A stretch of DNA of 47,447 nt from positions 1 through 47,447 of the IMG/VR virus record IMGVR_UViG_3300042922_000315. The stretch is one strand, 5' to 3'. This document shows, piece after piece, positions 1 through 47,447 of this stretch; position 1 is the first letter of the stretch, and the number at the start of each line of letters is the position of its first letter. The position numbers were made by a program, and so were the translations under genes. The notes below the pieces were generated by a model. The model saw nothing but the letters and a program-made list of their open reading frames with translations, searched no databases and was not told the DNA's origin. This DNA is from a virus.

Positions 1-1011
1 AAGAGGGATTCCTGGTACCGTGAAAAGGAAACTGTTAAATCCAAGAAAGTGGACAATACCCCCGCTTCTGCGAACACTGATCCTGAAAAGGTGGATAACC
101 AGCTTGAAACTGTGAACGAAAATCCTCAAAAGCCGGAAAATGAAGATGATCCTGAGGAAGAGACTCTTATATTCGATTTCTGGGATGGGAAGCCGGTAGT
201 AAAGCGATGCTCAGACTGTGAATATTACGATATGGAGTTGGATCACTATCGGGTACTCCATCCAGATACAGAGTTTCCCTGTAATGACTGTGACGACAGG
301 TTGTGTAATTGGATTCCGAAAGCTGGTTCAAAATACAAGGAATCTGTTAGCAAACCTGCTGAAACCGTTATTGAATCAACAGAATCCGTTATCGAGGAGG
401 AATCTCTAGATAGTCCGGTTGAAACCGTAGAAGCCGAGATCATTCAGACGGTACCGGAATATCCGGAAGTAGAGGATTATGAGCGGTACACCTTCCAGGA
501 CGTGCGAGATGAATACGACAAACTGGATGAGTATGTGTCCCACTACCGCAAGAATAATGACACCATGCCCGGACGGCGCAAAGCTAAGATGCGCTTGGAT
601 GCAATAACCCTCCTGAGGAAGGATATGCAGAAACCAAAAGAAACTGAACCTCCTAAGCAAGTACAACCGGAGCTGCCGCTCCTGAAGAATAATGACCAGC
701 GGAAAGAATGGATTGAGAATTATTCCTCCTGGCCAATATGGATTGACCTGGAGCAAACTGGAGAACGGTATTACCGGTATGATTTCGTAAATGGGGTAAG
801 CTTTGTAGTGAGAGTGAGCCTAAGTCATGAATTTCTTGGCTGGCAGAACGGTGGAGGATATTCAAAAACAAATATGGTATATGATCACGAAGAATACTTT
901 CTACTAGGCGGTGCAAGTGGCAAGTATGATCCTGAGAATAAGACTTTCTATGAGAGCAAAACGAATATGTCAACCATGGTTGAGTATCTGAAAGACATGC
1001 AGAAGAAGTGA
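1..1011 (+). CDS. Large Cys-rich phage protein, C-terminal part (5' end cut by window edge)
   Basis: The reading frame is open to base 1, so the true start lies upstream; the GTG at 49 is internal. The product aligns along its length with the C-terminal half of the 796-aa protein at 43380-45770, including an acidic stretch and a Cys cluster (CSDC, then CNDC and a further C) that looks like a zinc site. Relative to that copy it lacks two internal blocks, one after the shared VPEY motif and one before the shared QPELP motif, so the two are indel-rich homologues. No enzymatic motif is recognised. It is followed by the zinc-finger gene at 1019, as in block B. Function unknown. Confidence 0.75.
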   Translation, partial: KRDSWYREKETVKSKKVDNTPASANTDPEKVDNQLETVNENPQKPENEDDPEEETLIFDFWDGKPVVKRCSDCEYYDMELDHYRVLHPDTEFPCNDCDDRLCNWIPKAGSKYKESVSKPAETVIESTESVIEEESLDSPVETVEAEIIQTVPEYPEVEDYERYTFQDVRDEYDKLDEYVSHYRKNNDTMPGRRKAKMRLDAITLLRKDMQKPKETEPPKQVQPELPLLKNNDQRKEWIENYSSWPIWIDLEQTGERYYRYDFVNGVSFVVRVSLSHEFLGWQNGGGYSKTNMVYDHEEYFLLGGASGKYDPENKTFYESKTNMSTMVEYLKDMQKK

Positions 1012-1018
1012 GGCGCCT

Positions 1019-1207
1019 ATGGAATACAACAAGAAGTTGATCGAGAAGGCCAAAGGATCCCGCTGCAAGATTTGTTGGGAGTACATAACCGAGTCCGAGG
1101 TAGACGGATGTGAGTTCCAAGCTTCAAAGACTAGCCGAGGGAATTTTGCTTTTATACATAACAAGTGTTGCTATGGAGTGCCCGGGAAGAAGGTGCAAGG
1201 TGTATGA
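1019..1207 (+). CDS. Small zinc-finger phage protein (block A copy)
   Basis: A 62-aa protein with CKIC near residue 16 and an HNKC motif near residue 48, a probable treble-clef-like zinc site. It starts 7 bases after the preceding stop, in the same arrangement as its homologue at 45778-45963. The two proteins agree up to HNKC and then diverge, marking the point where the downstream gene differs between blocks A and B. Role unknown; nucleic-acid binding is plausible but inferred. Confidence 0.7.
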   Translation: MEYNKKLIEKAKGSRCKICWEYITESEVDGCEFQASKTSRGNFAFIHNKCCYGVPGKKVQGV

Positions 1208-1460
1208 AAGAGATTATTACGCATTACTGATCTGCATCCTCCGGCCAGTTACTCCGGAACAGAGCTTTGACATGATAAACGGCAAGGTAGCTCAGATTCA
1301 GAACGTTACGATAACGTCAGCTGACATTGAGGATATGATTCGGATGAAGGAACAGGGTATGACTCACCGAGAGATCGGAGAATGCTACGGTATTAGTGAG
1401 GAAGCAACATATAGGAGAATTAAGAGGTATAAGGAGAAAAAGGAGGTAGAGCCAGTATGA
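1200..1460 (+). CDS. Helix-turn-helix protein
   Basis: The C-terminal 50 residues form a homeodomain-like helix-turn-helix (MKEQGMTHREIGECYGIS, then a basic YRRIKRYK helix), typical of small phage DNA-binding proteins. The start is uncertain. GTG 1200 has an AAGG-like ribosome site and overlaps the previous gene; ATG 1173 and ATG 1272 are alternatives. The stop overlaps the next start (ATGA), implying translational coupling. Block B has a Dam methylase at this position. About 86 aa with the chosen start. Confidence 0.6.
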   Translation: MYERDYYALLICILRPVTPEQSFDMINGKVAQIQNVTITSADIEDMIRMKEQGMTHREIGECYGISEEATYRRIKRYKEKKEVEPV

Positions 1461-1693
1461 AAAATACATTAGGAGATCTGAATAATCATTTATTTGCGCA
1501 GCTGGAGAGATTGAGCGATGAAGATCTTAAGGGTGATGCCCTGCACGAAGAAATCTCAAGAGCTAAGGCAGTCAATGCAGTAGCTTCACAGATTATAGCA
1601 AATGGTTCCTTGGTACTCGAGGCGGAACGTCTGAATGATGAGCGGTTGAATGCTGATGGTAAGCTGCCTAAAATGCTGGAGGGGAATTCATGA
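1457..1693 (+). CDS. Conserved small phage protein (78 aa)
   Basis: A helical, acidic 78-aa protein with no catalytic motif. It is coupled to both neighbours by ATGA overlaps at 1457 and 1690. Proteins opening with a similar MKNTLGDLNNHLF sequence occur in many temperate phages of Bacillota, usually beside HNH endonuclease or packaging genes, but I know of no established function. It is absent from block B. Confidence 0.7.
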   Translation: MKNTLGDLNNHLFAQLERLSDEDLKGDALHEEISRAKAVNAVASQIIANGSLVLEAERLNDERLNADGKLPKMLEGNS

Positions 1694-2358
1694 ATCGGAT
1701 ATACAGCGAAGAGCACAAGCAGTATATCCGAGATAATATAGTCGGCAGACGGTTCCCAGAGCTTACCAAAATGCTAAATAATCATTTTGGAACCAATTTT
1801 GAAGAGTCAGCAATAAAAAGCTTGGTGTATAGACTTGAACTGGGGAATGGATTAAATGGTGTAGGCCTTAGCGATAAAGGGATAGCTCACAGATTTCAAA
1901 AAGGTCATGTTCCTGCCAATAAAGGCAAAAAAGGTACTGGTGGTTGGGAACCCACTCAGTTTAAGAAAGGCCAGGTTCCGGTGAATTACCGTCCTGTCGG
2001 CTCTGAAAGAGTGAATGTAGATGGATACATAGAAGTTAAGGTTGCTGATCCGAACAAATGGAGAAGTAAACATGTGGTAACCTGGGAGGAGCAATACGGA
2101 TCGGTACCGAATGGACATGTCTTAATTTTCGGAAATGGCAACAAGCTCGACATTAGTCTCGATAATCTATTGTTGGTATCTAGGGCTCAGCTGGCGGTAT
2201 TAAACAAGCATAAGCTGATTCAGAATGAGGTAGAGCTGACGCGAACAGCGATTGCGATAGCGGATGTTAAGATTAAGATTGGACAGAAGCAGAAACAGGC
2301 TAAGGAAAGCAGGAAGAGAGAAAGACGAGCGAAAGGAGCGATTAGATGCAGAGATTAG
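1690..2358 (+). CDS. HNH endonuclease
   Basis: A 222-aa protein. Residues about 120-165 hold an HNH_3-type core (KHVVTWEEQYG, NGHVLIFGNGN, then LDISLDNLLLVSR), where the first H, the central N and the DN pair are the expected metal and catalytic positions. The N-terminus is a basic DNA-binding region with FKKG/FQKGH repeats. It may be a free-standing homing endonuclease or a host-acquired nicking enzyme. It is present only in block A, so it fits a mobile gene that distinguishes the two alleles. The basic C-terminal tail overlaps the next gene. Confidence 0.88.
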   Translation: MNRIYSEEHKQYIRDNIVGRRFPELTKMLNNHFGTNFEESAIKSLVYRLELGNGLNGVGLSDKGIAHRFQKGHVPANKGKKGTGGWEPTQFKKGQVPVNYRPVGSERVNVDGYIEVKVADPNKWRSKHVVTWEEQYGSVPNGHVLIFGNGNKLDISLDNLLLVSRAQLAVLNKHKLIQNEVELTRTAIAIADVKIKIGQKQKQAKESRKRERRAKGAIRCRD

Positions 2359-2519
2359 TTTATACAGTTGACATCGACGAGGAGTTTTCGGATCTTACGG
2401 GATTCTTTGAATTATTGGAGGCTATCGTCGAGGATGAATTAGACTGCAACGTAATTCGGAGTAGTCTGGAGACTGAGGAAGAGACAATTTCTAAAGGTAA
2501 CTGGGAGGATGAGGAATGA
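2346..2519 (+). CDS. Conserved 57-aa phage protein (block A copy)
   Basis: A 57-aa acidic protein starting MQRLVYTVDIDEEF. It overlaps the HNH gene end by 13 bases and the next gene by an ATGA. Its homologue is at 46870-47043; most residues match and both end in a WEDE motif. The conserved small gene sits directly before the 131-aa gene in block A and two genes before it in block B. Function unknown. Confidence 0.75.
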   Translation: MQRLVYTVDIDEEFSDLTGFFELLEAIVEDELDCNVIRSSLETEEETISKGNWEDEE

Positions 2520-2911
2520 GCAAGAGCGCAAAAGAAGCCATGTTTTACCGCAACCAGGGAATCTTATCTGCCCTCGATACAGTTAAGGCCGGAGGGATCG
2601 AAGCCCTGGAGCGCAAGGTGGAATTCTATAACATCACAGGTGTTTCCATGAAGCCGGCGAAGCACGAAGGGGAATATACTCTCTACAAGCTTACTGAATA
2701 TGCTACCGAGACAGCTATTGTCTTCGCGCTAACAGCGCTGATGGAAGAGTTCAGCTTTAGCAGGTATCAGTTGGAGAAGTTCAAAAAGGCATTTGATACC
2801 AGGGTATTTGCAGCGCTGAACGGTGGGGATATGGATCAGTCAATGGCCGATCAGGTTGATAGGTTGGCCAGGGAAGCGGGGATTGAGATTGTGATTCCGG
2901 ATGCGAAATAG
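2516..2911 (+). CDS. Conserved phage protein, 131 aa
   Basis: A helical protein beginning MSKSAKEAMFYRNQG. No motif identifies a function. It is homologous to the truncated gene at 47237-47447: the first 84 bases of the two are diverged, then 127 bases from 2600 are identical. This gene is therefore where the two ends of the window meet. It closes the plus-strand accessory block; the next two genes run on the minus strand. Confidence 0.75.
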   Translation: MSKSAKEAMFYRNQGILSALDTVKAGGIEALERKVEFYNITGVSMKPAKHEGEYTLYKLTEYATETAIVFALTALMEEFSFSRYQLEKFKKAFDTRVFAALNGGDMDQSMADQVDRLAREAGIEIVIPDAK

Positions 2912-4980: not shown

Positions 4981-5052
4981 GGAGCCGTAGCTCAATAGGG
5001 CAGAGCATAGACCGTATGCTAACGGATGCAGGTTCGAAGCCTGCCGGCTTCC
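4981..5052 (+). ncRNA. tRNA-like element with aberrant anticodon arm
   Basis: A 7-bp acceptor stem (GGAGCCG with CGGCTTC), a D-arm (GCTC/GAGC) and a perfect T-arm (GCAGG TTCGAAG CCTGC) are clear. The anticodon arm is not canonical. The best 5-bp stem, AGCAT/ATGCT, encloses loop AGACCGT without U33 and shares bases with the D-stem. No CCA is encoded. It may be a decayed tRNA or a tRNA mimic. A GNRA-capped hairpin and a terminator follow directly. Confidence 0.55.
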
Positions 5053-28524: not shown

Positions 28525-29277
28525 TTATTTGATTTTTATAATGCCTGCGGTATTTAAATCAGCGGCATTTATTAAGATTTCATCCTCATATTTGAACCGT
28601 ATAGTATGTCCATTATATTTCCCCTCATATATCTTGCCTGCTTCAAATTTGCCTGAAGGAGTTCCAGTCACAATATAACTTTCTCCAATTCCATATATTA
28701 AGTACGTTTTTGTACCAGACCAATTAATAGTAATATCATAAACATCTGAAAGATATTTATTTCCAATCCATTCAGGTGTTTTTCCATATTCAGAAGATTC
28801 GTCTTCTGTAGTCGAGGGAGTCTCTATTCCATCTAAGTTTCTATCAGTAGGACTGATTGTTGGTGTTATGATTGAAGAGGAATCATCAAGTGAATCGGTA
28901 GAAGTCCATTTATCAATAGCATCACGCTCAGCTATTGCATTTTCTAAATCAGTATCGGTCATATAATCAGGATCTATCTTGGGTATTACAGTAACCTTGC
29001 AGCTGTATTTTATCCCTTTGATCTTAGCTGTTATAGTTGCTTTTCCGGTACCATTGGTAGTAACTTTACCGGTCTTAGATACAGTAGCTACGTATTTATT
29101 ATTACTTGACCAAGTTGCTTTTGTGGTAGTTCCCTTAATACTCAGATAAAGATAATCACCTTTGACAACTAACGCTGTTTTTTGACTTATTTTAATGGTA
29201 GCCGCACCCACTGAATCCGGAGCTAAAACCAATAGGCACAATACAAATGTTAATAATAACGATAAAAGCTTCTTCAT
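28525..29277 (-). CDS. Secreted protein with bacterial Ig-like (BIG2) domain
   Basis: A 250-aa protein. It has a signal peptide (MKKLLSLLLTFVLCLLVLAP, cleavage near VGA-A at about 26) and a BIG2 domain at residues 30-100 (ALVVKGDYLYLSIKGTT, NNKYVATVSKTGKVTTNGTG). A Ser/Thr-rich linker leads to a C-terminal beta domain. It has AAGGAGG and its own consensus promoter (29306-29334). The site beside attP and opposite strand mark a lysogenic-conversion gene, expressed from the prophage and exported to the cell surface. Ligand unknown. Confidence 0.85.
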   Translation of the reverse strand: MKKLLSLLLTFVLCLLVLAPDSVGAATIKISQKTALVVKGDYLYLSIKGTTTKATWSSNNKYVATVSKTGKVTTNGTGKATITAKIKGIKYSCKVTVIPKIDPDYMTDTDLENAIAERDAIDKWTSTDSLDDSSSIITPTISPTDRNLDGIETPSTTEDESSEYGKTPEWIGNKYLSDVYDITINWSGTKTYLIYGIGESYIVTGTPSGKFEAGKIYEGKYNGHTIRFKYEDEILINAADLNTAGIIKIK

Positions 29278-29581: not shown

Positions 29582-29610
29582 AAGCGGATAACGGGAATCG
29601 AACCCGTCAA
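29582..29610 (-). other. attP core: 3' part of a tRNA gene
   Basis: On the minus strand the sequence reads ACGGG TTCGATT CCCGT TATCCGC: a complete T-arm plus the 3' acceptor strand of a tRNA. No anticodon or D-arm precedes it, so it is a phage-borne fragment that restores the host tRNA on integration. The host tRNA should begin GCGGATA. The exact crossover is not visible. Confidence 0.8.
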
Positions 29611-29755: not shown

Positions 29756-30913
29756 TTATTCTTCCGAGGGAATTTCATTAAATCGGATAGCTTCTTCAAA
29801 ATATCCGTCCATCATGTCGTCTACTTTCACTCGCTCCTCTGAAAATGTCTGCATATATATCTTTTTCATTACCTGGTCGCTCTTCCAGCCGCCGCGATCC
29901 TGAGCGTATCTGTCCGGGATGCGGAGGAGCGCCATAATAGAGGCATTGAGGTGCCTCAGATCATGAAAGGTGATATGATCCATGTTATTATCATTTTGTA
30001 GTTTAACCCAATGCTTATACAAGGTCTGTCCACTAATCGGTACAATGATATCTCCCTCAACCTGATCTATCAATTCCTTAATATATGGAGGTATTCGATG
30101 GCGACGATTACGGGTGGGGTTTTTGGCCATTTCTTTGCGATATGGCTTATTATCTACGGTAACCACGACTTCATTTATTGTTATATAATCTCCCTGTATG
30201 GATTTTGATTTTGTCAGGCCACGGACTTCACTCATGGAAAATGACAACCATGAGGCCAAGAGGACAGGAAGTTCTATGTCGGTTCCTTTTACGATTCGGA
30301 GGACTTCCCGCGCTGGTGGCAGTTCTACGACCCTTTGCGTTGTAGTTGGAAGCTCAATCTCGCTAAAATCAAAACCCTTGCAGTATTTGTGCAATATAGC
30401 ACTTACAAGACCCCATTCATTTTTTAATCTCTTTGCTGATATTGGCTTGGGATCTTTTTTATTTTTATTTGATGGTCGCTTGGCTTCTACATTGATTGCC
30501 TCTTGCATAATTTCTTCATCAATATCTTCAATCAAAGTGTCCATTAGATCTTGGAATCCATTTTTCTGAATACATTTATAATCTTGTATGGTAGTAGGAG
30601 AGCGGTTAAGTGATTTTCGTGATTCTATATACTCATCAATAGCCTCTGTAAGTTTTAATTTCCCGTAGTCTTTCTTATTTTTCTTCTTTTTAACTTTACC
30701 TTTATTCAACATGAATTCTGCTGCAGCAAACTCGGCTTCTCGCTTCCCGGCCGATGATGGATCATCACTTGTAAATGATTCGTAGATTCTTTTTTGCTTT
30801 TGTTTTCCCCCTTCGTCCAGTACAGGTTTACCGTCTTTGTCAAATTCGGATTCGGTATGACTGTAGGCCAGGCAGCGCCATGATCCGGAAGGGAGTTTTT
30901 TAGCTTTTGCCAT
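29756..30913 (-). CDS. int: Tyrosine-family integrase
   Basis: A 385-aa recombinase. Residues 1-75 are an arm-binding-type N-terminus, 85-180 the SAM-like core-binding domain and 190-365 the catalytic domain. Catalytic residues seen: Arg231 (SMSEVRGL), His317-x-x-Arg320 (HDLRH), Trp343 (GGWKS) in the last-His position and Tyr353 (KKIYMQ). AAGGAGG precedes ATG. It integrates at the tRNA-type att core lying just beyond its 3' end. Confidence 0.93.
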   Translation of the reverse strand: MAKAKKLPSGSWRCLAYSHTESEFDKDGKPVLDEGGKQKQKRIYESFTSDDPSSAGKREAEFAAAEFMLNKGKVKKKKNKKDYGKLKLTEAIDEYIESRKSLNRSPTTIQDYKCIQKNGFQDLMDTLIEDIDEEIMQEAINVEAKRPSNKNKKDPKPISAKRLKNEWGLVSAILHKYCKGFDFSEIELPTTTQRVVELPPAREVLRIVKGTDIELPVLLASWLSFSMSEVRGLTKSKSIQGDYITINEVVVTVDNKPYRKEMAKNPTRNRRHRIPPYIKELIDQVEGDIIVPISGQTLYKHWVKLQNDNNMDHITFHDLRHLNASIMALLRIPDRYAQDRGGWKSDQVMKKIYMQTFSEERVKVDDMMDGYFEEAIRFNEIPSEE

Positions 30914-40285: not shown

Positions 40286-42208
40286 ATGCAACCATTAAAT
40301 GACTTAACAGCCGAAACAATACTAAGTGATGAAGTGCTCTGTGAAGTTATGGAAGAATCAGATGAGATTTTTAAAGCTCGCTTACTTTTATCACTTACGG
40401 ATAGAGCTGATGAGCTTAAAGTAAAGGCTAAATTTACAAAGCTCGTGGCAGCATATAAAAAAGAAAAGGCTAAATTTGATAAACAGGGAATCCAGAAGAA
40501 TTTAAATCGAGCTGACCAGGATGGATTAACGCACTTCAATGGTGATTACCCACAGCTTTATACCGGTGGTTGGGTGGCCGGCGAGGATGGCATATGGATA
40601 CTAACCCAGTTCGGAGAGAAGACAGCCTGCAGTCATCCAATCATGCCTGTCAAATCCCTCATTAATGCAGAAACAGGATATGTCAAGACAATACTAGCAT
40701 TCAAGGTTAGAAACCGCTGGAAAGAGATCGTTATCGATAAAGAAGTCATGTCCTCAAGTAACCGGATCACCGGATTATCCAAATACGGCGTCAGAGTAAC
40801 ATCGGAGAATGCCAGGGCTCTTGTTCAGTACCTGGCGGATATTGAGAGCATGAATGATTTACAGATTCCAGAGCAGCTCTCTACATCAAAGCTTGGATGG
40901 ATCAGTAATGGATTTGTACCTTATGATGACAGTGTAATATTTGATAACGATGATAATTTATCCGGTGCATTTAAAAGCATTCATTCATCAGGCTCCTATG
41001 TAAAATGGTTGGAACTTATGAAGGCAATAAGAAAAAATGGCAGAATCGAACCTAAAATCTTTCTTGCTGGATCGTTTGCGAGCCCTTTGCTTTATAAATT
41101 AGATGCCCTTCCGTTTATAATCAATAATTACGGCAAGACAGGAAAGGGAAAGACGATCACGTTGATGGTTGCAGCCTCGGTATGGGCGGATCCATCAGAA
41201 GGAAAGTACTGGATTAAATCAAAGGCGAACGAAATTGCACTTGAATCAAGACTGGATTTCTTGAACCATCTGCCACTGGCTATTGATGATTTTTCCGAGA
41301 TTCAGAAAAAGATGAAAGACGATTTCTCTGGATATGTATACAGCCTATGCTCCGGTGGAGGAAAAGAACGGTCAAATACTAATATAGGCCTGCAGCGTCA
41401 AAGACATTGGAAAAATATCATTCTTACAAACTCCGAACGGTCGCTAATTTCAGATACTATGCAAGGCGGAGCTATTAACCGAATTGTCGAATTCGAGAGT
41501 GCTGATGGAAGTATTTACGGTGATATAACTGAATCACAGGCGGTGCTGAGATGTGTGAAGGAGCATTATGGGTATGCCGGCAAGGAGTTTATTGAAATTA
41601 TTAATGATATGGATATTAAGGACTTAAAGGCAATTCAGAAAAGTTTTCAGGATAGGATCTATGACAAGGCGAATCAGCTGGGAATCGAGAAGGAAGATAA
41701 GCAGATCCTTCCCATGTCGATCCTGCTCACAGCGGATCAGATAGTTACGGATCATATTTTCGAGGATGGTGAATATCTGGACTTTGATGCCTGTTTCGAT
41801 ATGTTGAAAAACAAGGAGGAAGTGTCCGAAGATGAACGAGCCTATAACTTTATTATGTCCGATATCGCTATTCATCGTAATAATTTTGTACCGGATATCT
41901 ACGGAGGCTACAAGGGTGAGATATGGGGCATGATTGAAGATGGGTATGCAGTCATACATAACAATATTTTCAAGGGGATGTGTGAACGTGGTAATTTCTC
42001 CGGAAAGACATTCCTGAGCTGGGCTGACCGAAACGGGCTTCTAAAATTCGGCATCGATGCCAAAGTGAAGAAACTGGCCGGAAAATCTGCAAGGTGCATA
42101 TTCCTGAAGATGGACGACTCGGAGGCCGATGAAGAGAGTCCCGAACCGGAAACAGACGAGCATGGTTTTTACCGAATGCCACACCAGGAAGAGCTGCCAT
42201 TTGATTAG
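40286..42208 (+). CDS. DUF927 replicative ATPase/helicase-like protein
   Basis: A 640-aa protein from ATG 40286 with GAGGTGACC upstream. Residues about 100-480 are DUF927; Walker A is YGKTGKGKT (near 281) and a Walker B-like LAIDDFSE is near residue 330. The C-terminus has a winged-helix-like region and an acidic tail ending EELPFD, similar to an SSB tip. With the primase it forms the phage replication module. The candidate origin begins right after its stop. Confidence 0.9.
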   Translation: MQPLNDLTAETILSDEVLCEVMEESDEIFKARLLLSLTDRADELKVKAKFTKLVAAYKKEKAKFDKQGIQKNLNRADQDGLTHFNGDYPQLYTGGWVAGEDGIWILTQFGEKTACSHPIMPVKSLINAETGYVKTILAFKVRNRWKEIVIDKEVMSSSNRITGLSKYGVRVTSENARALVQYLADIESMNDLQIPEQLSTSKLGWISNGFVPYDDSVIFDNDDNLSGAFKSIHSSGSYVKWLELMKAIRKNGRIEPKIFLAGSFASPLLYKLDALPFIINNYGKTGKGKTITLMVAASVWADPSEGKYWIKSKANEIALESRLDFLNHLPLAIDDFSEIQKKMKDDFSGYVYSLCSGGGKERSNTNIGLQRQRHWKNIILTNSERSLISDTMQGGAINRIVEFESADGSIYGDITESQAVLRCVKEHYGYAGKEFIEIINDMDIKDLKAIQKSFQDRIYDKANQLGIEKEDKQILPMSILLTADQIVTDHIFEDGEYLDFDACFDMLKNKEEVSEDERAYNFIMSDIAIHRNNFVPDIYGGYKGEIWGMIEDGYAVIHNNIFKGMCERGNFSGKTFLSWADRNGLLKFGIDAKVKKLAGKSARCIFLKMDDSEADEESPEPETDEHGFYRMPHQEELPFD

Positions 42209-42540: not shown

Positions 42541-42780
42541 ATGTCAGAAAATAACAACAGAATGCCAACTCCTTCAGAGGTAAGAGAGATTTTTCATGTA
42601 ACTTACAATGTATTTTATAAAAAATGGATCAGTCCCGATATCGCATATGATGCAGATGTCATGTGGCAGGAGGTTTACGAAATTGACCGGAAGTATGATT
42701 GCAAGATGTGTCATGAGATGCTGATGGGGTTGGTGGAGAGTATAGACCAGGAGATAGTGAGGAGGAATCAAAGTGAGTAA
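42541..42780 (+). CDS. Phage protein, 79 aa
   Basis: An acidic helical protein (TPSEVREIFHVTYNVFYKKW) with a KYDCKMCHEM segment holding a CxxCH motif. First gene after the origin candidate; no clear ribosome site precedes the ATG. It overlaps the next GTG start. Function unknown. Confidence 0.65.
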   Translation: MSENNNRMPTPSEVREIFHVTYNVFYKKWISPDIAYDADVMWQEVYEIDRKYDCKMCHEMLMGLVESIDQEIVRRNQSE

Positions 42781-43378
42781 TTTAAAAGTAGTGAAAAGTG
42801 ATGATTATAGCCTTGCGGAGATCAAAGGGCTGATCAAGGACAATATCAACAAAACTGCTCAGGCATTTATTGCTATCGGATATTACCTGAAATGCGCAAG
42901 AGATAGCCAATTGTATCTTGAAGATGGGTATAAAAACATTTGGGAGTTTGCACAGGATGAGTTTAATTTTAGTCAATCCTGGGCTAGTCGGTGTATAGCA
43001 GTGAACAACAAATTCAGTGTCAACGGAAATTCTCCAATTATTCAAGAGAAATATAAAGATTTTTCGAAATGCCTCCTATCGGAGATGCTTAATATTGATG
43101 ATGAATTAATGGAGAAGGTTAAGCCTACGACAACAAGGGATGAAATCAGAGATTTAAAGATAAATCATGTTGATTATACAAAAGCCGACATAGACAGGGA
43201 ATTAGAGCGCAGAGAGGCAAAACTGGAAGCCCTACAGGATGATGGATTTATAGAGGATCTGAGAAAGAGGGCACAGATTAAGCTTGACGCCGTAGCGCTC
43301 TTGAAGGACAGTGTTTCCACAGAAAGACAGCCGCATTATTGTCCTCATTGCCACATGCTGATAGAGGAGGGTGATTGA
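42773..43378 (+). CDS. DNA-binding-like phage protein, paralogue of the next gene's N-terminus
   Basis: A 201-aa protein from GTG 42773. Residues 12-115 (LIKDNINKTAQAFIAIGYYL, GYKNIWEFAQDEFNFSQSW) match residues about 15-120 of the 796-aa neighbour, including the IGYYL and EDGY motifs. This resembles DUF3102-like domains with an HTH-type helix. The end adds a CPHCHM zinc motif. Probably binds DNA; exact family uncertain. Confidence 0.7.
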   Translation: MSNLKVVKSDDYSLAEIKGLIKDNINKTAQAFIAIGYYLKCARDSQLYLEDGYKNIWEFAQDEFNFSQSWASRCIAVNNKFSVNGNSPIIQEKYKDFSKCLLSEMLNIDDELMEKVKPTTTRDEIRDLKINHVDYTKADIDRELERREAKLEALQDDGFIEDLRKRAQIKLDAVALLKDSVSTERQPHYCPHCHMLIEEGD

Positions 43379-43379
43379 T

Positions 43380-45770
43380 ATGAGCGAGGAAATATTAGAA
43401 AGAAGCGCATCCGATTGGAGTACATACAGTCCCGGTAATCATAAAGACATCAAGAAAATCATTCAGGATAACATTAATTCTGTTTGCGCTAATTACGTGG
43501 CTATTGGATATTATCTAAATGTTATTAATGATCGGAGACTGTATGAAGAGGATGGTTATTCCGGCATCGGGGAGTATGCAGCAGCTGAGTATGGAATACA
43601 GAAGGATAGATGTTCCTGGTTGATGAAGATTGCAAAAAGATTCTGTATTGAAAATTCACCGGCATTATTGCCTCAGTATAGAGATTTCTCTATCAGTAAG
43701 CTTCGTGAAATGGTTTACTTGGATGATGAGCAGTTAGACCAGGTTTCGATTGGCATGACAAAAGTGGAAATTAAAGAAATGAGAAAACCTGAAAAAGTAA
43801 AAGTTGCTCCGGAGCAACTCGAACCAGAACAACATAAGTCAGAGATTGAGCCAAGGATCAGAAACATGATCATCCGTGAATACATAAATAGTCTCCCGGA
43901 ATGGAAAAGGGACAATATTCGGAAAGTATTTATGGGATCCGCTAGCTTAGAGGAACGTGTCAATTACCTTAAGTCATGTATTTCCTTTGGTGAAGTTAAG
44001 CTGAATCTCGAGAAAGATATTAAGAAGCTGTATCTTCGTAAAGCAAGCGAAAATGATCTTGAGATATCAGATTGGTACAATGACTATGCTGAGTTTGCGC
44101 ATGGTGTAAAGATATTTATGTTTACATTCAGTGAAATGGCTGGTATAGCAGATGGAATGCTTTATGGGTTGAATTCAGAGGTTAAACTACCGTCCGTGGA
44201 GGATAAGGATAAGCCTGAGATAAATCCTTATGATGCTAAAAAGCCGGAGCCTGGGATAGTTATTTACGATGTAGGAGGAAGTGGAGATATTGAAAAGTAT
44301 GGAGTTATCTCAAAGAATAGTTCTTTCTCTCCAAAGTATTTCACCGTGAAAGATAAATCAGGAGCCATACATAACATTTCGGTTGAGAGTGAGCATTGGC
44401 ATTATACCAGGGATGAGGCTAAGAGGGATACATGGTATCACGAAAAGGAAACTGTTAAGTCCAAGGAAGTGAACGACACCCCAGTTTTCGAGAACACTGA
44501 TCCCGGAATTATGGATAACCAGCCTGAAACCGTGAACGAAGATCCTCAAAAGCCGGAGAATGAAGATGATCCTGAGGAAGAGACTCTCATATTCGATTTC
44601 TGGGATGGGAAGCCAGTAGTAAAAAGATGCTCAGAATGTGAATATTACGACATGGAGTTAGATAACTACCGGGTACTCCATCCAGATACAGAGTTTCCCT
44701 GTAATGACTGTGACGACAGGTTGTGTAATTGGATCCCCAGAACTGCATCAGAATACAAGGAATCTGTTAGCAAACAGGCTCAAACCGTTATTGAATCAAC
44801 AAAATCCGTTATCAATGAAGAGAAAGTTGTTACTGAACAGGTTGAAACCGTGGAGGCCGAGATCGTTCAGATGGTACCGGAATATGATTTTGACAGGATA
44901 TCCCGGTATGGCTTACTGGATATAGGATCCCTTGTCTATGATTACAATAAGAGCCTTGAAGCGTACAAAGAGTGTCAGCTGGATGCGCCGGTAGTTCGCA
45001 AGGATAAAATATTGCTGGATGCATTGGAATGCCTGAAGACAGTCCTATCGGCTCCCGATCTCATGGAAGATATGGATGAGAATGAGCGGTATACACTGGA
45101 GGATGTGATAGACGAATGTGCCAAGTTGGGTGAATACGTATCTACATACAGCCGGAATAATGACACCATGCCCGGACGGCGCAAAGCCAAGATGCGTTTG
45201 GATGCAATAACCCTCCTGAGGAGTGAGCTGCAAAGACAACCGGAAGCTGATGAGAATATGGTCAGGAAAATGGCCAGATTCGCTATGGAGTGGTTCGATA
45301 AAGAAGATTATGATAGTGCTGACTTTTATCTGTTCCAGGCAAGGAAGCAATTAGTTGATAATTACAAATACGAGCGAGACTTTTATCCAGACTATTACAA
45401 TGATAATCGATTAAAACAGCCGGAGCTTCCGATCCTGAAAAACAATGATCAGAGAAAAGCTTTTATTGATAACTATGAATCATGGCCAGTTTGGATCGAC
45501 ATTCCTCATACAGGAGAAAAATATTATCGATATGATTTATCCCGTGAGGTTGCCATGGTTGTCAAGGTCAATAAGAAGCATGCATGGAAGGGCTACAAGG
45601 AGACCAAGGATTATGAATATGGTGCAGAACAGTATTATCTTCTTGGCGTAAAGGCTGAATGGTCACAGAAAGGCTCTAAGTTTATTGAGGATCCGGAAAG
45701 GACGTTTCATGAGTGCAATACTAACAAATCTGCGCTGATTGAATACCTGAAGGATTACCAGAAGAAGTGA
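43380..45770 (+). CDS. Large multidomain Cys-rich phage protein (block B copy)
   Basis: A 796-aa protein from ATG 43380 with GGAGGG upstream. Residues 15-125 are the DNA-binding-like domain shared with the previous gene. A helical section follows, then a small beta domain near residue 300 (GVISKNSSFSPKYFTVKDK). Next come an acidic linker, a Cys cluster (CSECEYYD, CNDCDDRLC) and the C-terminal domain shared with 1-1011. No catalytic motif found. Two internal blocks absent from the block A copy show modular evolution. Confidence 0.8.
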   Translation: MSEEILERSASDWSTYSPGNHKDIKKIIQDNINSVCANYVAIGYYLNVINDRRLYEEDGYSGIGEYAAAEYGIQKDRCSWLMKIAKRFCIENSPALLPQYRDFSISKLREMVYLDDEQLDQVSIGMTKVEIKEMRKPEKVKVAPEQLEPEQHKSEIEPRIRNMIIREYINSLPEWKRDNIRKVFMGSASLEERVNYLKSCISFGEVKLNLEKDIKKLYLRKASENDLEISDWYNDYAEFAHGVKIFMFTFSEMAGIADGMLYGLNSEVKLPSVEDKDKPEINPYDAKKPEPGIVIYDVGGSGDIEKYGVISKNSSFSPKYFTVKDKSGAIHNISVESEHWHYTRDEAKRDTWYHEKETVKSKEVNDTPVFENTDPGIMDNQPETVNEDPQKPENEDDPEEETLIFDFWDGKPVVKRCSECEYYDMELDNYRVLHPDTEFPCNDCDDRLCNWIPRTASEYKESVSKQAQTVIESTKSVINEEKVVTEQVETVEAEIVQMVPEYDFDRISRYGLLDIGSLVYDYNKSLEAYKECQLDAPVVRKDKILLDALECLKTVLSAPDLMEDMDENERYTLEDVIDECAKLGEYVSTYSRNNDTMPGRRKAKMRLDAITLLRSELQRQPEADENMVRKMARFAMEWFDKEDYDSADFYLFQARKQLVDNYKYERDFYPDYYNDNRLKQPELPILKNNDQRKAFIDNYESWPVWIDIPHTGEKYYRYDLSREVAMVVKVNKKHAWKGYKETKDYEYGAEQYYLLGVKAEWSQKGSKFIEDPERTFHECNTNKSALIEYLKDYQKK

Positions 45771-45777
45771 GGCGCCT

Positions 45778-45963
45778 ATGGAATACAGCAAAAAACTGAT
45801 AGCAAAGGCTAAAGTATCCCGTTGTAAGGTATGTTGGGAATACATAAGCGAGTCGGAAGCTGACAGTTGTGAATTCCAGGCAACCGAGACCAGTAAGGGG
45901 AATTTCGCTTTTATGCATAACAAGTGTATATCGGCTTTTGTAGGAAAAAAGGAGGCAACATGA
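45778..45963 (+). CDS. Small zinc-finger phage protein (block B copy)
   Basis: A 61-aa homologue of 1019-1207 with CKVC and HNKC motifs. It starts 7 bases after the large gene, as in block A. Its last codons overlap the Dam start, while in block A the same point leads to the HTH gene. Confidence 0.7.
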   Translation: MEYSKKLIAKAKVSRCKVCWEYISESEADSCEFQATETSKGNFAFMHNKCISAFVGKKEAT

Positions 45964-46724
45964 GGACAGTTTTAAAATATCCGGGTGCCAAGAACCGTCT
46001 GGCTAAATGGATATGTGAATACATACCTGATCACGACGTTTATCTCGAACCATTTTTCGGAAGCGGAGCAGTACTTTTTAATAAGACTCCGGCCAAAATT
46101 GAAACCATAAACGATCTTGACTGTAATGTTGTTAATTACTTTAAGGTGATAAGAAATAATGGATCAGAGTTCATGAGGCGGTTAGAGCTTACGCCATACG
46201 GCCGAGATGAGTACAAATCTTGTTTTGCAGAGGATCCACAAGATGATGATATCGAGAAGGCTAGAAAATTCGCAGTCAGATGTTGGCAGGGATTTGGATG
46301 CTCGAATCGGTATATGAACGGGTTTAGGAGTTCACAACAAAGAAATAGTCCAATGACCACTAAGGCGTGGGATGAGTTTCCGGAAACAATCAGAATTTCC
46401 ATCGAACGGCTTAAGCAGGTGCAGATAGAAAACCTGGATGCTAGAGAACTTATACGGAGATACGATACCGGCGACGTATTTATCTATGCGGATCCTCCAT
46501 ATTTGCATGGTACCAGAAAGAATTATCTGTATAACCACGAGATGTCAAATGAGCAGCATATAGAATTATTGACGTTACTTGTTAATCATCCGGGAAAAGT
46601 CCTTCTTTCAGGATACGAAAACGATCTTTATAACAGTGTTTTGACTGGATGGAGAAAGGTTATGAAGAACACGCAGGCAGAATTCGGACTTAAGAGAACC
46701 GAAGTGTTATGGATGAATTATTAA
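45960..46724 (+). CDS. D12-class N6-adenine DNA methyltransferase (Dam-like)
   Basis: A 254-aa protein from ATG 45960 with AAGGAGG upstream. It begins RTVLKYPGAKNRLAKWI and has the SAM-binding FFGSGAV (residues 32-38) and the catalytic DPPY (178-181). The target-recognition region lies between them, as in alpha-type D12 enzymes. No restriction enzyme is adjacent, so it is an orphan methylase that could protect phage DNA from host cleavage. Target sequence unknown. Confidence 0.92.
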   Translation: MRTVLKYPGAKNRLAKWICEYIPDHDVYLEPFFGSGAVLFNKTPAKIETINDLDCNVVNYFKVIRNNGSEFMRRLELTPYGRDEYKSCFAEDPQDDDIEKARKFAVRCWQGFGCSNRYMNGFRSSQQRNSPMTTKAWDEFPETIRISIERLKQVQIENLDARELIRRYDTGDVFIYADPPYLHGTRKNYLYNHEMSNEQHIELLTLLVNHPGKVLLSGYENDLYNSVLTGWRKVMKNTQAEFGLKRTEVLWMNY

Positions 46725-46728
46725 TGTA

Positions 46729-46801
46729 TGGAGATAATGGGACTCGAACCCACGGCCTCCTGCATGCCATGCAGGCGCTCTCCCATCTGAGCTATATCCC
46801 C
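46729..46801 (-). tRNA. tRNA-Ala (GGC)
   Basis: Read on the minus strand, it has the 7-bp acceptor GGGGATA/TATCTCC, D-arm GCTC/GAGC, anticodon arm CCTGC-ATGGCAT-GCAGG (anticodon GGC, U33 present) and T-arm GTGGG-TTCGAGT-CCCAT. Discriminator A, CCA not encoded. The full cloverleaf predicts function. It is on the strand opposite its neighbours, in the segment exchanged between blocks A and B. Confidence 0.93.
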
Positions 46802-46869
46802 GGATAACATGGATTATAGCATGGATTGGGGAGTAAAACAAGAAACAGATGAGCGAAAGGAGTAAGTAT

Positions 46870-47043
46870 ATGCAGAGATTAATATACACGATTGACATCG
46901 ATGAGGAGTTCGTTGGGATGGACGGTATCCTGGGGCTGCTTGATGCAGAAGTTGAATCAAGACTTGATTGCATTGTGATCCGGAGTAAGTTGGAGAGCCC
47001 GGATGAAATAGCCTATGAAGGTGACTGGGAGGACGAGATATGA
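46870..47043 (+). CDS. Conserved 57-aa phage protein (block B copy)
   Basis: A homologue of 2346-2519 with the same start (MQRLIYTIDIDEEF) and same end (WEDE). ATG 46849 is in frame upstream, but GCGAAAGGAG lies 10 bases before ATG 46870 and the paralogue fixes this start. It overlaps the next gene by ATGA. Confidence 0.75.
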   Translation: MQRLIYTIDIDEEFVGMDGILGLLDAEVESRLDCIVIRSKLESPDEIAYEGDWEDEI

Positions 47044-47240
47044 CGAATGCAGAAAAGATAGCAGCTGACATTGATGGACTTGCAGATCTGATTTACCGTG
47101 CGGATGATATAAACCCGGAAATATGTAATGCGGAGTATGGCGAAGGTGATGATTTAGTCAATTGCAAGTATCCCGATGAGGACAAAGGATGCGTAAAATG
47201 TATCAAAGAGTGGCTGATGGAGGAGGTATCTAAAGAATGA
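47040..47240 (+). CDS. Small Cys-containing phage protein, 66 aa
   Basis: An acidic protein with NCKYPDEDKGCVKCIKEWLMEE, a possible zinc or iron site of three Cys. It is present only in block B, between two genes that are adjacent in block A. Coupled to both neighbours. Confidence 0.68.
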   Translation: MTNAEKIAADIDGLADLIYRADDINPEICNAEYGEGDDLVNCKYPDEDKGCVKCIKEWLMEEVSKE

Positions 47241-47447
47241 GCAAGAGTGCAAAAGAAGCAATGTTCTACCGCAACCAGGGAATTTTATCTGCCTTAGATA
47301 CAGTTAAGGCCGGAGGCGTTGAAGCCCTGGAGCGCAAGGTGGAATTCTATAACATCACAGGTGTTTCCATGAAGCCGGCGAAGCACGAAGGGGAATATAC
47401 TCTCTACAAGCTTACTGAATATGCTACCGAGACAGCTATTGTCTTCG
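47237..47447 (+). CDS. Conserved phage protein, 3' end cut by window edge
   Basis: The first 70 codons of a homologue of 2516-2911. Codons before 47321 differ by several mainly silent changes; from 47321 to the last base the DNA is identical to 2600-2726. If the sequence circularises there, the protein ends as in the gene at 2516. Confidence 0.78.
   Translation, partial: MSKSAKEAMFYRNQGILSALDTVKAGGVEALERKVEFYNITGVSMKPAKHEGEYTLYKLTEYATETAIVF

Follow-up and report, generated by a model that had tools for sequence, protein, structure and literature searches.

Analysed here is a stretch of viral DNA of 47,447 nucleotides (the window), which is a complete IMG/VR record whose ends are classed as linear. 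Its last bases recur inside the record, and this raises the question of whether the repeat is a real feature of the viral genome or a trace of the assembly, and which form the genome takes. The features discussed below are summarized in Table 1.

Table 1. Features of the window, with positions, strand and evidence
Feature	Position	Strand	Evidence
Side branch (head arm)	1–2599	+	arm alignment, ORFs, domain matches
Head arm: C-terminal part of long ORF	within 1–2599	+	
Head arm: 62-aa Cys-rich ORF	1019–1207	+	
Head arm: HTH gene	1110–1460	+	
Head arm: 78-aa ORF	1457–1693	+	
Head arm: HNH endonuclease (HNH_3)	1690–2358	+	
Head arm: 57-aa ORF	2346–2519	+	
Junction gene, 131 aa, PHROG 17690 (function not known)	2516–2911	+	PHROG match, translation
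Internal copy of the putative k = 127 vertex, inside the junction gene	2600–2726	+	sequence comparison, k-mer count
Closed 44,721-bp phage map (predicted)	2600–47320	+	PHROG matches, gene content
attP-like core, identical to the tRNA-Gly(CCC) 3' end of the putative host family	29584–29605	-	genome matches, ARAGORN
Tyrosine integrase adjoining attP	29756–30913	-	
Tail arm, homologous alternative to head arm	44421–47320	+	arm alignment, ORFs, domain matches
Tail arm: C-terminal part of 799-aa ORF	from 44421 (whole ORF 43371–45770)	+	
Tail arm: 61-aa Cys-rich ORF	45778–45963	+	
Tail arm: D12 adenine methyltransferase	45924–46724	+	
Tail arm: tRNA-Ala	46729–46801	-	
Tail arm: 64-aa and 66-aa ORFs; the additional 66-aa ORF lies before the junction gene			
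Terminal 127-bp copy, putative k = 127 graph vertex where the contig path re-enters itself	47321–47447	+	sequence comparison, k-mer count

The exact repeat at the end of the record

A sequence-only reading of the window had reported that the last 127 bases exactly repeat an internal stretch, that the bases preceding the two copies differ (GATC vs. CGTT) and that 127 is a de Bruijn k-mer size, which pointed to a place where the assembly re-enters itself. Sequence comparison bore out the first two statements. The two copies are identical at 127/127 bases, the right copy stops on the last base of the record and the identity does not extend leftward at all. When k-mers were counted over the whole record, exactly one repeated 127-mer was found, none on the opposite strand and no repeated 128-mer (0), and this count agrees with the proposed re-entry. 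The length of the repeat is a usual maximum k of such assemblers (127), its end is the last base of the contig and no (k+1)-mer is used twice, as expected of a k-mer artefact. A direct terminal repeat would place the same sequence at both record ends, but here the other copy is internal.

From the start of the junction gene up to the repeat there are 84 coding bases, and 9 of these sites differ between the two places (10.7%). At this divergence the probability of an identical run of 127 bases is about 6e-7, and at 5% divergence it is about 1.5e-3. Because the bases immediately upstream are diverged to this degree, chance or descent alone was rejected as source of the identity. The 127-bp repeat is an assembly artefact and does not stand as a real feature.

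Proposed path of the assembly

De Bruijn assemblers (metaSPAdes, MEGAHIT) break contigs at points where paths converge, the broken ends overlap by exactly maxK, and for metaSPAdes k values of up to 127 are in use (PMC10914622). metaSPAdes is also the assembler of the JGI metagenome workflow (PMC9302107). For the present record the assembler was not stated, and we infer one of the metaSPAdes type.

The contig is very probably a lasso, that is, one walk round a closed phage map that stopped on meeting its own path. The sample would have contained a temperate, contractile-tailed phage of ~44.7 kb with a Lachnospiraceae-type host, its DNA being circular, concatemeric or permuted. At least two versions of this phage would have been present, which differ in the region that separates the junction gene from the replication genes. 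The assembly path would start on one version (the head arm) and pass the shared 127-mer, then round the genome once through attP, enter the other version (from about 44421) and return to the same 127-mer, where it would stop since the next edge had already been used. The repeat would be the overlap left by a k = 127 assembler of this kind. If two edges (head arm, tail arm) enter the vertex and one edge (body) leaves it, this would explain together the length of the repeat, its end on the last base, the lack of any 128-mer used twice and why the arms are homologous. Base 1 itself shows no sign of a vertex, and the model does not account for the head arm starting at this position.

Two homologous arms

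The homology is wider than the repeat that had been noticed before. All of 1–2726 is a diverged homologue of 44421–47447; the two stretches are collinear, with patches of 73–96% identity and insertions between them, and share further exact blocks at 250/44670 (65 bp) and 552/45155 (33 bp). The earlier proposal that 1–2599 is a side branch fits this homology with 44421–47320. The gene order is the same in both arms: the C-terminal part of a long ORF is followed by a Cys-rich ORF of 61/62 aa, a variable cassette, an ORF of 57/64 aa and the start of the junction gene. The cassette of the head arm consists of the HNH endonuclease, the HTH gene and the 78-aa ORF, whereas that of the tail arm involves the D12 methyltransferase and an antisense tRNA-Ala. 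We infer that the two arms stem from two co-existing genomes. With the head arm in place of its tail counterpart, the map would measure 44,420 bp vs. 44,721 bp.

The tail arm holds the first 70 codons of the junction gene (47237–47446, one residue different), which read on in frame at 2727, so that joining 47320 to 2600 yields an intact 131-aa gene. In the part before the repeat, the nine base differences change a single residue (I to V). The long ORF was compared between the arms over its first 132 codons; 15 of the 38 differing codons were synonymous, and this ratio indicates that it is less constrained than the junction gene. Neither the junction protein nor an exact 39-bp pattern taken from the repeat found a match in viral_contigs.

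Alternatively, the tail arm might derive from a different phage and be joined via shared stretches only; the 44,721-bp circle would then mix two phages, and the circular map would still be right. Cassettes are swapped at this locus among the relatives, and where strains share sequence over more than k bases, a de Bruijn assembler cannot tell which upstream part belongs to which downstream part (PMC11443906). However, the 799-aa ORF runs unbroken from the body into the tail arm, and in L062 b42773 and the N-terminal part of the 799-aa ORF are neighbours in the same order (69–83% identity). Thus, we regard such a mixture as rather unlikely. It is similarly doubtful that the arms represent a cassette locus (HNH endonuclease vs. 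adenine methyltransferase) that is actively exchanged within one phage population via its conserved flanks, with both forms co-existing in one sample.

Two further observations concern this region. The tRNA-Ala(GGC) of the tail arm, which has no equivalent in the head arm, is complete (65.7 bits), lacks an encoded CCA and lies antisense between the methyltransferase and the small phage ORFs. Next to the tail arm, the neighbouring genes at 42773–43378 and 43371–44420 are 37–38% identical in their N-terminal parts, as after a tandem duplication, and the pair is also present in L062.

Gene order in related phages

If the map is circular, the genes at 40–47 kb must precede those from 2.6 kb on, and this order was seen in independent DNA. 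In an IMG/VR record (L054) and in a MAG contig (L063), the order DUF1351-Erf-primase-arm genes-junction gene-3571 gene-4347 gene is found on one contig, and in L054 it continues as far as the portal; the two are near-identical at the protein level and may represent one lineage. A prophage on a 1.77-Mb chromosomal contig (G146, contig 3) has integrase-Erf-primase-junction gene-3571 gene-portal-capsid-sheath-tape measure-baseplate in one piece. The order of the window is a circular permutation of this prophage, the outer ends of which are joined in the window. Across the closure, the sequence thus corresponds to one molecule in each of these relatives, which share roughly 30–80% protein identity with the window. 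These data indicate a closed map of 2600–47320, the physical form of which may be a covalent circle, a concatemer or permuted linear DNA. The 44,721-bp circle that had been proposed is supported by this gene order and by the mid-contig attP. It had been offered as an alternative to a graph branch; each of the two stands, but not as alternatives, since both hold together.

The same relatives bear on the possibility of a real duplication, in which the arms would be diverged direct repeats in one genome, one on either side of 42 kb. The two arms do occur together in one record, with open and similar genes. However, the identity is limited to exactly 127 bases, with its end on the last base, and the relatives (G146 prophage, L054, L063) have one junction gene each rather than both copies on one molecule. 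Moreover, the record has just one copy of each of the other phage core genes; duplicates are confined to the arm genes and the start of the junction gene. A genuine duplication is very improbable and was rejected. Fixed terminal repeats of a linear phage, 127 bp of which would have been recovered, were rejected as hardly credible at all, since the exact direct repeat involves one record end but the other end has no copy, and the two copies are located within a gene that is continuous there in relatives.

Phage type and attachment site

PHROG matches on the map included structural and lysis genes (terS, terL, portal, minor head, scaffold, major head, sheath, tape measure, baseplate, endolysin), and, beyond attP, an integrase, a CI-like repressor, a metalloprotease-type regulator, an Erf-like annealing protein and primase/helicase. 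Judged from this gene content, it is an ordinary temperate, contractile-tailed phage, and its host is probably a Lachnospiraceae-type bacterium. Relatives of its primase were found in Anaerocolumna, Clostridium sp. KNHs205 and Lachnospiraceae MAGs. A Megablast search of phage records yielded no real relative, and no independent record of the same phage was found among the records searched.

The 3' end of a tRNA is a usual attachment choice of tyrosine integrases. The 22-bp core of the attP-like site is located between endolysin and integrase with phage DNA on both sides, as expected of a circular map, and this means that the assembled DNA was an excised, replicating or packaged form. Identity to the tRNA-Gly(CCC) of several Lachnospiraceae spans about 24–26 bp and ends at the tRNA end. 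Allowing at most 1 mismatch, the 22-mer was found in 17 of 100 Lachnospiraceae genomes, and ARAGORN called a tRNA-Gly(CCC) at the match in all loci scanned (8/8). A longer exact query, a 27-mer of the attP region, had no match in 60 Lachnospiraceae genomes. With Rfam, attP matched a tRNA only partially and weakly (12.5 bits), as would be the case for a fragment. The match of the core suggests both the host family and the integration site.

Between endolysin and attP, a gene on the minus strand (28525–29277) with weak Ig-like and tail-fibre matches occupies the usual place of a moron gene. A tRNA-Gly(ACC) (4981–5052, plus strand, 40.2 bits) is located upstream of the terminase small subunit, and in the related G146 prophage a tRNA-Leu(TAA) occupies a comparable position (contig 3, 37384–37477).

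Comparison with known systems and other records

The exact overlap of maxK = 127 at the contig end resembles the k-mer end overlaps on which COBRA is based, and breaks at multi-path points, one cause of which is within-population variation, are described there as well (PMC10914622). In contrast to the usual end overlaps (PMC10914622), the present one is with the inside of its own contig and not with its other end. For this reason a direct-terminal-repeat test misses the closure and the record is classed as linear. A circular phage genome with one diverged region and a small graph tangle is also reminiscent of the multi-edge components of strain mixtures in viralFlye, but here the situation is known from a single contig without a graph (PMC8862349). 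In its order integrase-Erf-primase-junction gene-head-tail, the phage resembles temperate contractile-tailed prophages of Lachnospiraceae (G146 contig 3, L054, L063; the integrase was seen in G146 only). It differs from them between primase and junction gene, a region that is different in each and spans only about 0.7 kb in G146.

When 29 other records were surveyed for end repeats, no further 127-bp case was detected; tandem-like repeats near one end were seen in two of them (G003, G013). In IMGVR_UViG_3300029893_000021 (G004, L072–L074), the first 72 bases (1–72) recur at 41998–42069, 322 bases before the 3' end, and this record is possibly another closed map missed by the terminal-repeat test.

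For users of the record, the genome is 44,721 bp long and apparently complete, about 2.6 kb of the record should be left out of gene counts and the class 'linear' is misleading. If contig ends were checked for recurrence inside their own contig, and not just at its other end, closed phage genomes of this kind would be retrieved from public collections. The repeat is useful as annotation advice, and the biology behind it is ordinary phage mosaicism.
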